DNA from: Oscillospiraceae bacterium
Lineage (GTDB): Bacteria > Bacillota > Clostridia > Oscillospirales > Oscillospiraceae
Length of the DNA stretch: 64,000 nucleotides
Assembly (NCBI GenBank): GCA_015067725.1
Contig: SVLX01000012.1
Coordinates: forward strand, 1 to 64,000
Reading direction: 5' to 3'
Position numbers and translations under genes: made by a program. The notes beneath the pieces are model-generated. The model was given only the letters and a program-made list of their open reading frames with translations, searched no databases and was not told where the DNA came from. This document shows positions 44,777 through 50,114 of the stretch, piece by piece; positions within the stretch are counted from its first letter, which is position 1; every line of letters begins with the position of its first letter.

Positions 44777-45208
44777 TCAGAAATACAAGTCAGCCGCCAG
44801 ATTCCCATGGGTATACCAGCAGACCACCTTGCGCATGAAGCCCTCAGTGACTCCAAAATGCTCTGCCAGCATCCACAGATCCGTGCAGCCAAGGGCCACG
44901 GCATCGTCCAGCTCTCCGGGGGAAATCAGCGTCTCAATGGCCCAGCGGTCAGCCCGGTTTTCCTGCTTCTGCCGCAAATCCCGGGCGGCGTAACGGTTAT
45001 AGAAGCTACCGGTCACGCAATGCCCCAGCTCATGGGCCAGATGGACCTTCTTATCCCGCTCGGAGGAAACCACTGCCTCATCCAGTCCCACCACACAGCC
45101 CCTGCCCGGCAAATCCAGAGAAACCGAGCCGGTTTGCGGCAGAGGAAAGGGGAGAATGGGAATCCTGGACGATTCAGCCAAACGATAAAGCCCCAGTGTA
45201 TCTACCAT
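44777..45208 (-). CDS. ImmA/IrrE-family metallopeptidase
   Basis: 143 residues. Zinc protease motif HLAHELGHCV and the third ligand in ENRADRWAIETL. In ICEBs1 and many phages ImmA cuts the cognate XRE repressor (ImmR) to start induction. The gene starts four bases after the XRE gene and is coupled to it. The pair is the regulatory half of a phage-like switch here. Confidence 0.92.
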   Translation of the reverse strand: MVDTLGLYRLAESSRIPILPFPLPQTGSVSLDLPGRGCVVGLDEAVVSSERDKKVHLAHELGHCVTGSFYNRYAARDLRQKQENRADRWAIETLISPGELDDAVALGCTDLWMLAEHFGVTEGFMRKVVCWYTHGNLAADLYF

Positions 45209-45211
45209 AGG

Positions 45212-45547
45212 CTATCCCTTCTTTTCCTGCTCCCGTTGCATGACGAAGGCAGCAAACCGCTTCACCTCGTCAAACATCTCGTCAGTGATTTCTCCTTCAC
45301 CGCCGAACAGAGCAAATTTCAGGTCATCATCGGAAACCTGTTTGCCGGGTGCGGCGCTCTCTGTTCCCAAAAGGAAGCCCACGGATACCCCAAAGTAATC
45401 CGCCAGTTTTGCGGCTGTAGCTCCATTGGGCACAGCGCCGGATTTCCATTTGGCAACGGCAGAGCGGTTCAGCCCCACATCGGTGCAAACCTTGTAGGCA
45501 CTGAGTCCGGCTTTTTGGCACAGTCCGGTAAAGACCTCATAAAACAT
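45212..45547 (-). CDS. XRE repressor of a phage-like switch
   Basis: 111 residues. Helix-turn-helix at about 5-62 (LCQKAGLSAYKVCTDVGLNR, SAVAKWKSGAVP, YFGVSVGFLLG) and a C-terminal helical tail rich in charged residues that would be the ImmA target. It should bind the four 16-bp operators found at 45583-45714. Its own promoter (45685-45713) has an operator over the -35 box, so it represses itself. GGGGGCG precedes the ATG. Confidence 0.88.
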   Translation of the reverse strand: MFYEVFTGLCQKAGLSAYKVCTDVGLNRSAVAKWKSGAVPNGATAAKLADYFGVSVGFLLGTESAAPGKQVSDDDLKFALFGGEGEITDEMFDEVKRFAAFVMQREQEKKG

Positions 45548-45582: not shown

Positions 45583-45598
45583 GGTGACTAAAGTATAC
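45583..45598. promoter_or_regulatory. Operator site 1
   Basis: GGTGACTAAAGTATAC, a copy of the imperfect palindrome whose consensus is GATTACCAAAGTAATC-like. It lies upstream of the -35 box of the rightward promoter. Confidence 0.65.
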
Positions 45599-45608
45599 GT
45601 TTTACCCC

Positions 45609-45637
45609 TTGACAGGCTACCAAAGTATGCGTATAAT
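45609..45637 (+). promoter_or_regulatory. Rightward consensus promoter of the phage-like operon
   Basis: TTGACA (45609-45614), 17 bp, TATAAT (45632-45637): a perfect sigma-A promoter. Operator 2 fills its spacer exactly, so a bound repressor must block it. Confidence 0.9.
45615..45630. promoter_or_regulatory. Operator site 2
   Basis: GGCTACCAAAGTATGC, inside the spacer of the rightward promoter. Confidence 0.7.
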
Positions 45638-45646
45638 AGCCGCAGA

Positions 45647-45662
45647 GGTTACTCAAGTAATC
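45647..45662. promoter_or_regulatory. Operator site 3
   Basis: GGTTACTCAAGTAATC, close to a perfect palindrome, lying just after the expected start of the rightward transcript (about 45644). Confidence 0.7.
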
Positions 45663-45684
45663 TCTCCCCGCCTCTTATGGGTAT

Positions 45685-45713
45685 ATTTTAGCATGAGTGA
45701 TTACCAAAGTCAA
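45685..45713 (-). promoter_or_regulatory. Leftward promoter of the repressor gene
   Basis: Minus strand TTGACT (45713-45708), 17-bp spacer, TAAAAT (45690-45685); expected start near 45678. It faces the rightward promoter, so the two transcripts overlap by about 35 bp at their 5' ends. Confidence 0.75.
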
Positions 45714-45714
45714 C
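45699..45714. promoter_or_regulatory. Operator site 4
   Basis: GATTACCAAAGTCAAC, covering the -35 box of the leftward repressor promoter. Confidence 0.7.
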
Positions 45715-45806
45715 AACTATTTATATCGGGGGCGAAAAAAGTATACCACAGGGACTGTGCAAAAAATTGCACCATCTCAGGACAGGACAGAAAGGAGCGG
45801 ATTTTT

Positions 45807-46022
45807 ATGGCAACCAGTTGGGACGCCGTCAATGTGCAGTGCCCTTTTTACCGGCAAAATGACGGTCTGCATATCTTGTGTGAGGGGATTTTCCCGGACA
45901 GCGGCATCACCACCACCTTCACCAGCCGGAAGAAACGGGCGGCGCTGATGGAAAGCTACTGCATGAGCTGTTATACCCAGTGCGGACTCTACCGGCAGAT
46001 TGAGCGAAAATATGAGGGGTGA
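45807..46022 (+). CDS. Small Cys-rich protein of phage type
   Basis: 71 residues. Cysteines in VQCPFYRQNDGLHILCEG and YCMSCYTQCGLYR suggest one zinc-binding unit. Similar short proteins with a CPFY...CEG...C..CY..C pattern are common in clostridial prophages, function unknown. AAAGGAG precedes the ATG. First gene behind the operator-controlled promoter. Confidence 0.8.
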   Translation: MATSWDAVNVQCPFYRQNDGLHILCEGIFPDSGITTTFTSRKKRAALMESYCMSCYTQCGLYRQIERKYEG

Positions 46023-46026
46023 TGAC

Positions 46027-46974
46027 ATGGCGGCACAAAACAACACCCCCAAACCGGGATTACCCGCCCAAAACCGGGAGAATATGCCGGAAACTGCCCG
46101 CCTGACGCCCGATGACGCGCCGGTGATTCTGGGTGCAGACCCGGAGAAAAGCGCATACACCCTCTGGGCGGAAAAGCGGAATCTGCTTCCTCCAGAAAAA
46201 ACCGGGGTATCCTGTTCCCTTGACCGGGGGCTGGAAGACTGGATTGTCCGGCGATTCCGGGAGATAACCGGCTTCAAAACCCGGCGCGTCTGGCATTGGG
46301 GCGAAAACCGGGCATACCCCCAGCTATGCGCCCATCCGGCGCATTTGGTGGTACAGCAGGGCGCAGGGCTGACCTGCCGGGTAGTACCGACAGAGGCGAT
46401 GCTCTCCGGGCAGACAAAAGCCCTTCTCCGGCGGCACAGATACCACTGTTTCCACCAAATGCTGGTCACCGGGCGGGAGAATTGGTATCTGGCGCTTCTG
46501 ATTCCGGGGAAAGACATCCAAATCCACCCGCTGACCCCGACCCGGGAGGAGCTTTTGTCTTTGGCGCAGGCGGAATTGCAGTTTTGGCAGAGGGTCAAAG
46601 ACAATCAACCGCCCATGCCTGACGGCTCGGATTCCACCCTGCGGACACTGCAGCGGCTGTATCCGGCGGCGGAGGGAAAATCCGTAGACCTGAGCCCGGT
46701 CAGCCTGCAACTCCACGACTATATCCGATGCCGACTGCAGGAAAAGGAATTGGCCGAAGCCGCCCGCCGAAAAGCGGGCATCATCAAGGCCTATTTGGCC
46801 AATGCCGGGAGCGGTCAACTGGGCAGTATCCGGGTGCATTGGTTGCCGGAAGACGGTGCTCTGCCCGACGGGGGAATCCCGAATCGTGACCACCCGGCAA
46901 TGGCCGCCGGTGCGGAACACCCCCGGATTTTCCGGGTATTTTCCCCGGAATATGGCATTTTGGAAGAAACCTGA
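46027..46974 (+). CDS. YqaJ-like recombination nuclease homologue, active site replaced
   Basis: 315 residues. The segments ILGADPEKSAYTLWAEKRN, GLEDWIVRRF (Glu70), HQMLVTGRENWYLALLI and AELQFWQRVKDNQPPMPDGS match phage YqaJ/lambda-exonuclease-type proteins. At the metal site, where active members have an aspartate and an ExK motif, this protein has HPAH (Ala105) and TCR (116-118). It is therefore probably unable to cut DNA but may still bind it or a partner. About 85 residues follow the nuclease-like domain. GAGGGGTGA precedes the ATG at 46027; four bases after the preceding stop. Confidence 0.78.
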   Translation: MAAQNNTPKPGLPAQNRENMPETARLTPDDAPVILGADPEKSAYTLWAEKRNLLPPEKTGVSCSLDRGLEDWIVRRFREITGFKTRRVWHWGENRAYPQLCAHPAHLVVQQGAGLTCRVVPTEAMLSGQTKALLRRHRYHCFHQMLVTGRENWYLALLIPGKDIQIHPLTPTREELLSLAQAELQFWQRVKDNQPPMPDGSDSTLRTLQRLYPAAEGKSVDLSPVSLQLHDYIRCRLQEKELAEAARRKAGIIKAYLANAGSGQLGSIRVHWLPEDGALPDGGIPNRDHPAMAAGAEHPRIFRVFSPEYGILEET

Positions 46975-47013
46975 GCCCCGGCAACCGGGATGAACAGAAA
47001 GGAAGCGACGACG

Positions 47014-47349
47014 ATGACGAACGAAAGATACACCCACGAGACCAATCTCTCCCCCTGCGAGGGTTGCGAAAGGCCCTGCAACTATATTCAGTGCCGGGAT
47101 TACCGGCTGTGGCTGAATCGATGCTGGAATCGCTACCGCCACTGGCAGGATAGGAAAATGCCCCAACCCCGCCGGGAGAATGTATGGCGGTATCCCTCTC
47201 CGGCCATGGTGCAGCGGTATCTGGACAACAGCCCCTGCACCGGTTGCCCCATCCGTCCATACTGTCCCGATGACCGGAGCTGTGAGACATACGACCAGTG
47301 GCAGAGCCTGCGTTGGGAGAGACTGCGGCGCAGGCTTGGTGTCAATTGA
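47014..47349 (+). CDS. Protein with two Cys-cluster modules
   Basis: 111 residues. Two copies of a zinc-binding-like module: SPCEGCERPCNYIQCRDYRLW and SPCTGCPIRPYCPDDRSC followed by ETYDQW. Single modules of this kind occur in small clostridial prophage proteins. AAAGGAAG is spaced eight bases before the ATG at 47014; an ATG at 46990 lacks a site. Last gene of the operator-controlled operon. Confidence 0.8.
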   Translation: MTNERYTHETNLSPCEGCERPCNYIQCRDYRLWLNRCWNRYRHWQDRKMPQPRRENVWRYPSPAMVQRYLDNSPCTGCPIRPYCPDDRSCETYDQWQSLRWERLRRRLGVN

Positions 47350-48707: not shown

Positions 48708-50114
48708 ATGCAAACTTATACCGAAGAATTATTAGCCGCTTATGCAGACGTAGAAGGCGAAGAAGAAAAGGTCCGATATAAAGACAGTACCTATGACATC
48801 ATTTCCAAGGTCGCTTACTTAATCGGTGTCCCCACCAGAATCTTTGAAAATGAGCATGAGCCGCCAAAAATGGAAGTCCTGGAGCGGCTGGACAAAGACA
48901 AGAATTGCCGCATCATCCGTCACCTGTGCATTGTCCGCACCGCCATTGAGCGGGGGTTCAAGCACATTTCGGAGAAGATGAAGTATCAGTATCTCAGCAT
49001 TCTCTCCATGCCGGAGCATATTCCCCAGGAGTCTTTGCGGCAACTGGCTATGGACGGCGTGGAATTCTACAAGAAGTCCAGCACCAAGCTGAACCATCAC
49101 ATTATCGAAATTAACCGCATTATCTCCGACCGCATCAACAACTGCAAGCACGTTTTCCCCATCTGGATCAACTGGGACTATATCCGGGAAATGTTCATCA
49201 TGCCCAATGGTCTGACGGAGATCGGCACAAAATATGCCGCCAATACCTACTTTGAGAATCTGGATCTCTATCCCTATCAGGTCTATATCAACTGGGTCCC
49301 TCAGCCCAATGGCAATATCCTCTATAACGACAAGAAGTTTGTCACTCTGCTCTACCAGTGGCACAACGACTACTTCACCGATTACAGCCGGGTCTCCGAT
49401 GCCGGCGACTTCGTCAAGAGCAACATTTATGACTTCGTGGACGAGGCCGAGCGGGTGGTCATGGCGGTGGACTGCGAAAACTCCGACCCCTATCGGCTCT
49501 GCGCCACCCTGAAGGGCTTAGACCCGGACATTCTGCGGAAAATCCGGAAAATCATGCTCTTTGACGACGTGAATACGGTCAATGCCTGGCGAATTCTGGA
49601 TGGTTATACCAATATCCCCGTGGAGCACATCATGACCGAGCGGGTCAAGCAGAACAAGTCTCTGGTGGACATCAAGCTGACTGCCCAGACCTGTCTGGAG
49701 CATTACCGGAACAATGTGGACTCCTTCATTATCGTCTCCAGTGATTCCGACTATTGGGGGCTGATTTCCTCCATGCCCGATGCCCGGTTCCTGGTGATGA
49801 TCGAGCGGGAGAAGTGCGGCCCGGACATGAAGGCGGCCATGGCCAACAGCGGCATTTTCTATTGTTACATCGACGACTTCTACTCCGGCAACAGCGAAGA
49901 CATCAAGCAAAACGCCCTGTTCACGGAGCTGTACCGCTATCTGGACAATGCCCTCCACCTGAATGTCAATGAGATGCTGGAGTCGGCCATGAAAGCCACC
50001 CGCATCACCATGAACCCCGCAGAGCGGCAGCGGTTCTATGACAAGCATATCCGGCAGATGCAACTGGTCATTGATGAGGAGGGCAATGTGTCTATTGAGC
50101 TTAAGCGGAAATGA
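48708..50114 (+). CDS. NYN/PIN-like-domain protein
   Basis: 468 residues, soluble. The region from about 245 to 400 has the NYN/PIN nuclease layout: VVMAVDCENSD (first acidic site), DIKLTAQTCLEHYRN and IIVSSDSDYWGLIS (second and third acidic sites). The N-terminal 240 residues are helical with no known domain. This suggests an RNase that acts on structured RNA, with target unknown. AAGGAAG precedes the ATG at 48708. Expression may depend on read-through of the upstream terminator. Confidence 0.8.
   Translation: MQTYTEELLAAYADVEGEEEKVRYKDSTYDIISKVAYLIGVPTRIFENEHEPPKMEVLERLDKDKNCRIIRHLCIVRTAIERGFKHISEKMKYQYLSILSMPEHIPQESLRQLAMDGVEFYKKSSTKLNHHIIEINRIISDRINNCKHVFPIWINWDYIREMFIMPNGLTEIGTKYAANTYFENLDLYPYQVYINWVPQPNGNILYNDKKFVTLLYQWHNDYFTDYSRVSDAGDFVKSNIYDFVDEAERVVMAVDCENSDPYRLCATLKGLDPDILRKIRKIMLFDDVNTVNAWRILDGYTNIPVEHIMTERVKQNKSLVDIKLTAQTCLEHYRNNVDSFIIVSSDSDYWGLISSMPDARFLVMIEREKCGPDMKAAMANSGIFYCYIDDFYSGNSEDIKQNALFTELYRYLDNALHLNVNEMLESAMKATRITMNPAERQRFYDKHIRQMQLVIDEEGNVSIELKRK

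Follow-up and report, generated by a model that had tools for sequence, protein, structure and literature searches.

The window analysed here is a 64,000-nucleotide stretch of contig 3 of a 2.66-Mb genome, and it contains a small islet of five genes (Table 1). Three of them lie consecutively on the plus strand with closely spaced ends and a good ribosome-binding site (RBS) each, and they encode a YqaJ/RecE-type exonuclease homologue between two small Cys proteins. The earlier note had proposed these three open reading frames as an operon held under a phage-like switch, and we confirmed both the genes and the arrangement, the switch consisting of xre and immA and lying divergent to the operon. 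The frames of all five islet genes are open.

Table 1 Features of the islet (positions in the window)
Feature	Positions	Strand	Evidence
immA, ImmA/IrrE-type metallopeptidase (anti-repressor)	44777..45208	-	PF06114 9e-8; phrog_87 metallo-protease 6.5e-24
xre, XRE/Cro-CI type repressor	45212..45547	-	HTH_3 4e-7
Operator array	45583..45746		repeat search and comparison of xre-divergent intergenic regions
Operon promoter	45609..45637	+	TTGACA-17-TATAAT, overlaps operator 2
xre-immA promoter	45685..45713	-	TTGACT-17-TAAAAT with TG, overlaps 45699 operator
znA, 71-aa Cys protein	45807..46022	+	invariant C12, C25, C52 and C59 kept
YqaJ/RecE-type exonuclease homologue, catalytic residues replaced	46027..46974	+	profiles, alignment, predicted model
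znB, 111-aa protein with two 4-Cys clusters	47014..47349	+	six family-invariant Cys kept

The neighbours within 0.5 kb of the islet are genes that we take, from their sequences, to be host rny on the left and a host sugar transferase gene on the right. No integrase, terminase, annealase or structural genes were found in or around the islet, no tRNA lies beside it, and no convincing att-like repeats flank it. The phage-like switch and gene families could be explained if the islet belonged to an intact, inducible prophage, but the host genes so close by and the lack of the integrase, packaging and structural genes and att sites of an active prophage make this extremely improbable. The earlier note had named restriction of the operon to active prophages as evidence against its reading, whereas the operon here lies outside any prophage. 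A search of the host genome (98.9% complete) that was limited to RecT did not detect it. An empty site beside rny was also sought in the genus and none was identified, the gene order around rny not being conserved there. Close to the islet, positions 48708-50114 of the window encode a 468-aa protein with an NYN nuclease domain (PF01936, 2.4e-5).

In the switch, the ImmA/IrrE peptidase has an intact HELGH motif and is the sole copy of its class in the host genome. Operator sites with the consensus GATTACTWAAGTAATC were located at 45583, 45615 and 45647, in 32-bp steps, and at 45699, where the site overlaps the xre promoter; a weaker copy lies at 45731. The operon promoter matches the consensus at 12 of 12 positions, and operator-like sites with a spacing of 32 bp overlap and flank it. 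As in switches of the ImmR-ImmA type, an HTH repressor stands in tandem with an HExxH peptidase and, at the sequence level, multiple operators overlap divergent promoters.

The same repressor class was found (E<=1e-40) at 24 loci in 23 of the 136 genus genomes, and the palindrome recurs as variants at these 24 loci. At 22 of them a stand-alone gene for the Spo0A C-terminal domain (Spo0A_C) is divergent from the switch, an assignment that was made for one of the 22 loci by PF08769 (1.9e-33). The two exceptions, the window and a locus of another species (genome G034), carry phage early genes instead, and G034 also has the nearest relative of the window's ImmA by identity (68%, in a tree that is poorly resolved and includes some partial rows). 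The arrangement of xre-immA divergent to Spo0A_C with a conserved operator array can be seen at L040:5489-7012 (also L037-L039, L041-L043, L045-L052, L056 and L385-L390), the Spo0A_C protein being about 159 aa long without a receiver domain, and a Spo0A_C gene also occurs in a phage-like early region (L393:5024-5500). Related switches were found in prophages and beside integrase-less clusters of head genes as well, which makes a phage origin the most likely one for the XRE-ImmA switch. Two such head modules, with terminase, P22-like portal, capsid and internal virion protein genes, lie beside xre-immA at L193:1110-12590 and L192:433-16066, and integrase and recognisable tail and lysis genes are absent from the stretch examined. 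Conservation of switch and operators over 24 loci with differing cargo would fit a functional core made of the switch alone, serving superinfection immunity or stress regulation (compare the 22 Spo0A_C loci) with incidental cargo; but the cargo genes of the window keep their RBSs, frames, ligands and the perfect promoter, and we consider this explanation very unlikely.

The central protein (315 aa) was matched over residues 23-280 by PHROG 434, "RecE-like recombination exonuclease", with an E-value of 9e-34, which bears out the resemblance to phage recombination exonucleases described in the earlier note. TIGR03033 (1e-4) fell under its cut-off and Pfam YqaJ PF09588 (0.0047) under its gathering score. 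A profile of the protein and eight relatives reached lambda exonuclease in the PDB (E 4e-4), and in this alignment the Asp and ExK of lambda Exo are in register with A105 and T116-R118 of the window protein. An AlphaFold2 model built from 66 sequences had a mean pLDDT of 89.6, and its top solved matches were lambda Exo (Foldseek 6e-8) and LHK-Exo (Z 17.9 over 178 residues, rmsd 4.8). Judged by profile match and predicted lambda-exonuclease fold, the protein is a genuine YqaJ/RecE-type homologue. Identity to intact relatives is 23-33%, single-protein scans of viral and genome contig collections gave no close relatives, and the disarmed gene is known from one copy only.

We then aligned 169 relatives from the genus, the order, IMG/VR and GTDB contigs, for which the best 80 loci were taken from each of the two contig collections. 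Seven positions, G66, E70, D105, E116, K118, Q140 and Y144, are near-invariant (166-169 of 169): D105 is Asp in 168 relatives with one gap, E116 is Glu in 169, and K118 is Lys in 166. In the window protein E70 (motif I) alone survives; the others read G66D, D105A, E116T, K118R, Q140H and Y144Q. Alanine in place of the metal aspartate and Thr-Cys-Arg (residues 116-118) in the ExK motif were exactly as the earlier note had claimed, and G66 and the motif III residues Q140 and Y144 are replaced in addition. This combination was seen in none of the 169 aligned relatives. Departures from an intact site were confined to one unreliable fragment (L148) and to two Romboutsia proteins with K118V. The two Romboutsia YqaJ-type exonucleases (L326 and L352) have the ExK lysine changed to Val and keep the remaining site residues. 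With the catalytic D, ExK and motif III Q/Y replaced by A105, T116, R118, H140 and Q144, the alignment places the protein in the family by descent and not as an enzyme. A sequencing or frameshift artefact was rejected because the alignment continues on both sides of the site and several separate codons differ.

Thus the proposal of a nuclease fold that lacks the metal site agreed with our data, the exonuclease fold being predicted and the site residues absent; the earlier note had named an intact metal site in the structure prediction as the outcome that would speak against it, and none was found. A protein that still cuts DNA through other residues, e.g., Thr, Arg or His, would be compatible with the kept E70 and the intact predicted fold, but the metal Asp, the ExK Glu and Lys and the motif III Gln and Tyr are all replaced, and K131A alone is described as inactivating lambda Exo (PMC7496540), which makes residual nuclease activity highly improbable. 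A non-cutting nuclease fold is well supported by the alignment and the predicted model. A conserved N-terminal Trp and GGS motif near the expected 5′-phosphate pocket is also changed, which weakens the alternative suggestion of the earlier note that the protein binds DNA ends. In lambda Exo this pocket is formed by Trp24 and Arg28 (PMC7496540), and the pocket of the window protein is probably lost too, a two-residue gap making the alignment there uncertain.

The loss is concentrated at the site. Catalytic columns were kept in 1 of 7 cases versus 35 of 48 other conserved columns (conserved at >=80%, position 30 onward; Fisher p=0.005), and three of the 13 lost other columns, 106, 119 and 137, adjoin catalytic motifs in sequence. 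In 800 simulated runs we let active relatives decay neutrally until they had lost the same catalytic residues. This needed about 0.73 substitutions per site and introduced 11 stops on average (minimum 2), with 31% of the other conserved residues kept on average, whereas the observed gene has 0 stops and keeps 73%. The comparison indicates that the altered protein has been under selection for its fold, which acted after, or during, the loss of the site, either in the bacterium or in a phage. With the cutting centre replaced and the rest of the protein kept, the pattern suggests conversion of a phage enzyme to a non-cutting form.

The strongest competing explanation is that the islet is a relic of a prophage left stranded: the exonuclease homologue would have changed in a phage, or after leaving one, and would now be functionless, and the repressor may still give superinfection immunity. 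Neutral decay does not match the concentration of loss in the catalytic motifs, and the five open frames, the Cys ligands and the consensus promoter are intact, which also argues against a relic; but the loss could have arisen under selection within a phage lineage with the islet stranded afterwards, and recent stranding of a phage gene that had already been altered is still compatible with the data. The locus was found in one species only, and a second phage fragment in the same genome, truncated to terminase and portal genes, shows that relics occur. That fragment lies among host genes at L402:8048-11653 (G000:C62) and adjoins an AbrB-like regulator and several similar secreted proteins in a row, whose start we take by eye to be TasA/camelysin-like.

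The two flanking proteins also have a phage background, which fits the relic reading too. Both carry the cysteine clusters ascribed to them by the earlier note, with 4 of 4 family-invariant cysteines kept in znA and 6 of 6 in znB, and from these cysteines alone they probably bind metal (zinc-type). Homologues of znA were found in 21 of 136 genus genomes and those of znB in 13 of 136, the latter mostly in phage regions (the znB alignment varied too much to serve in a scan of the contig collections). Most homologues of both sit in prophages, between replication genes and terminase genes; at 25 of the 182 relative loci znA lies downstream of an intact exonuclease gene, and in a prophage early region of genome G116 it adjoins znB. 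Both families are common in clostridial prophages, and these early-region locations indicate that the islet parts are phage early genes. The earlier note knew of no described system with this set, and its unusual character stood in part: the exact three-gene set of znA, exonuclease homologue and znB was seen nowhere else in our searches, but the Cys families are widespread and the switch is genus-wide. All considered, we regard the relic as possible but less than probable. Our preferred explanation, to which we give an even chance, is that the islet, about 2.6 kb long, derives from a phage: three genes that once belonged to a phage early region stand under a lysogeny-type switch, and the exonuclease has been kept after losing its catalytic centre.

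If the islet does work in this way, XRE would silence the strong operon promoter until ImmA, activated by DNA damage or by an infecting phage, cleaves XRE, an expectation based on relief of repression by ImmA upon DNA damage in the ICEBs1 ImmR-ImmA switch (PMC8960796). The disarmed exonuclease and the two Cys (probably zinc) proteins would then be made. The disarmed protein would act through protein contacts and not by cutting, and when a phage comes in it would most likely join that phage's exonuclease-annealase machinery or compete with it. We infer the induction, the oligomer or partner binding and any effect on phage. Lambda Exo is a trimer of identical subunits, and its activity falls when K131A subunits are mixed in (PMC7496540); a dead subunit could therefore interfere mechanically, and the role of decoy or inhibitor is plausible, but at 23-33% identity to intact relatives mixed rings or direct co-assembly are doubtful. 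We therefore hold this interference step, taken alone, as tentative and rather unlikely. A bolder proposal, which we consider unlikely, is that the genus deploys phage-derived DNA-metabolism proteins as interfering parts via a domesticated XRE-ImmA switch: in the window a disarmed exonuclease, shaped by selection and set between two zinc-type proteins, would poison the recombination machinery of infecting phages, and in G034 a helicase loader would take the corresponding place.

If confirmed, the islet would be a case in which a phage recombination nuclease became a non-cutting protein controlled by an immunity switch, and it would provide a way, open to testing, in which prophage genes become host functions. 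The loci of this genus-wide switch, whose cargo can be exchanged (Spo0A_C, disarmed exonuclease or helicase loader), form a natural comparison set for asking which phage genes persist and why.

Among known systems, PADLOC models gave no match for the three cargo proteins and only weak peptidase and HTH matches for the switch, and in the literature, with most subscription journals outside our coverage, no system with a disarmed YqaJ protein was described. The YqaJ/RecE-type exonucleases (PHROG 434, TIGR03033, PF09588; lambda Exo 1AVQ, LHK-Exo 3SYY) share fold, length and conserved core with the central protein, which reaches lambda Exo by fold at Z 16.5-16.9, but it differs from them in its replaced metal Asp, ExK and motif III and in the absence of an adjacent annealase. 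The ICEBs1 ImmR-ImmA switch (PMC8960796) likewise places an anti-repressor metallopeptidase after a small HTH repressor and has several operators in the divergent promoter region, whereas the switch of the window governs three genes in an islet that lacks integrase and transfer genes. The xre-immA/Spo0A_C loci of the genus have a repressor class 60-70% identical and the same operator palindrome, but their cargo is the Spo0A C-terminal domain and that of the window is phage early genes. In the G034 islet (L036:6153-8412), the divergent position under the same switch is occupied in the order znB, loader, znA, so both Cys families again flank one phage DNA-metabolism protein, which there is a DnaD-like helicase loader instead of an exonuclease homologue.
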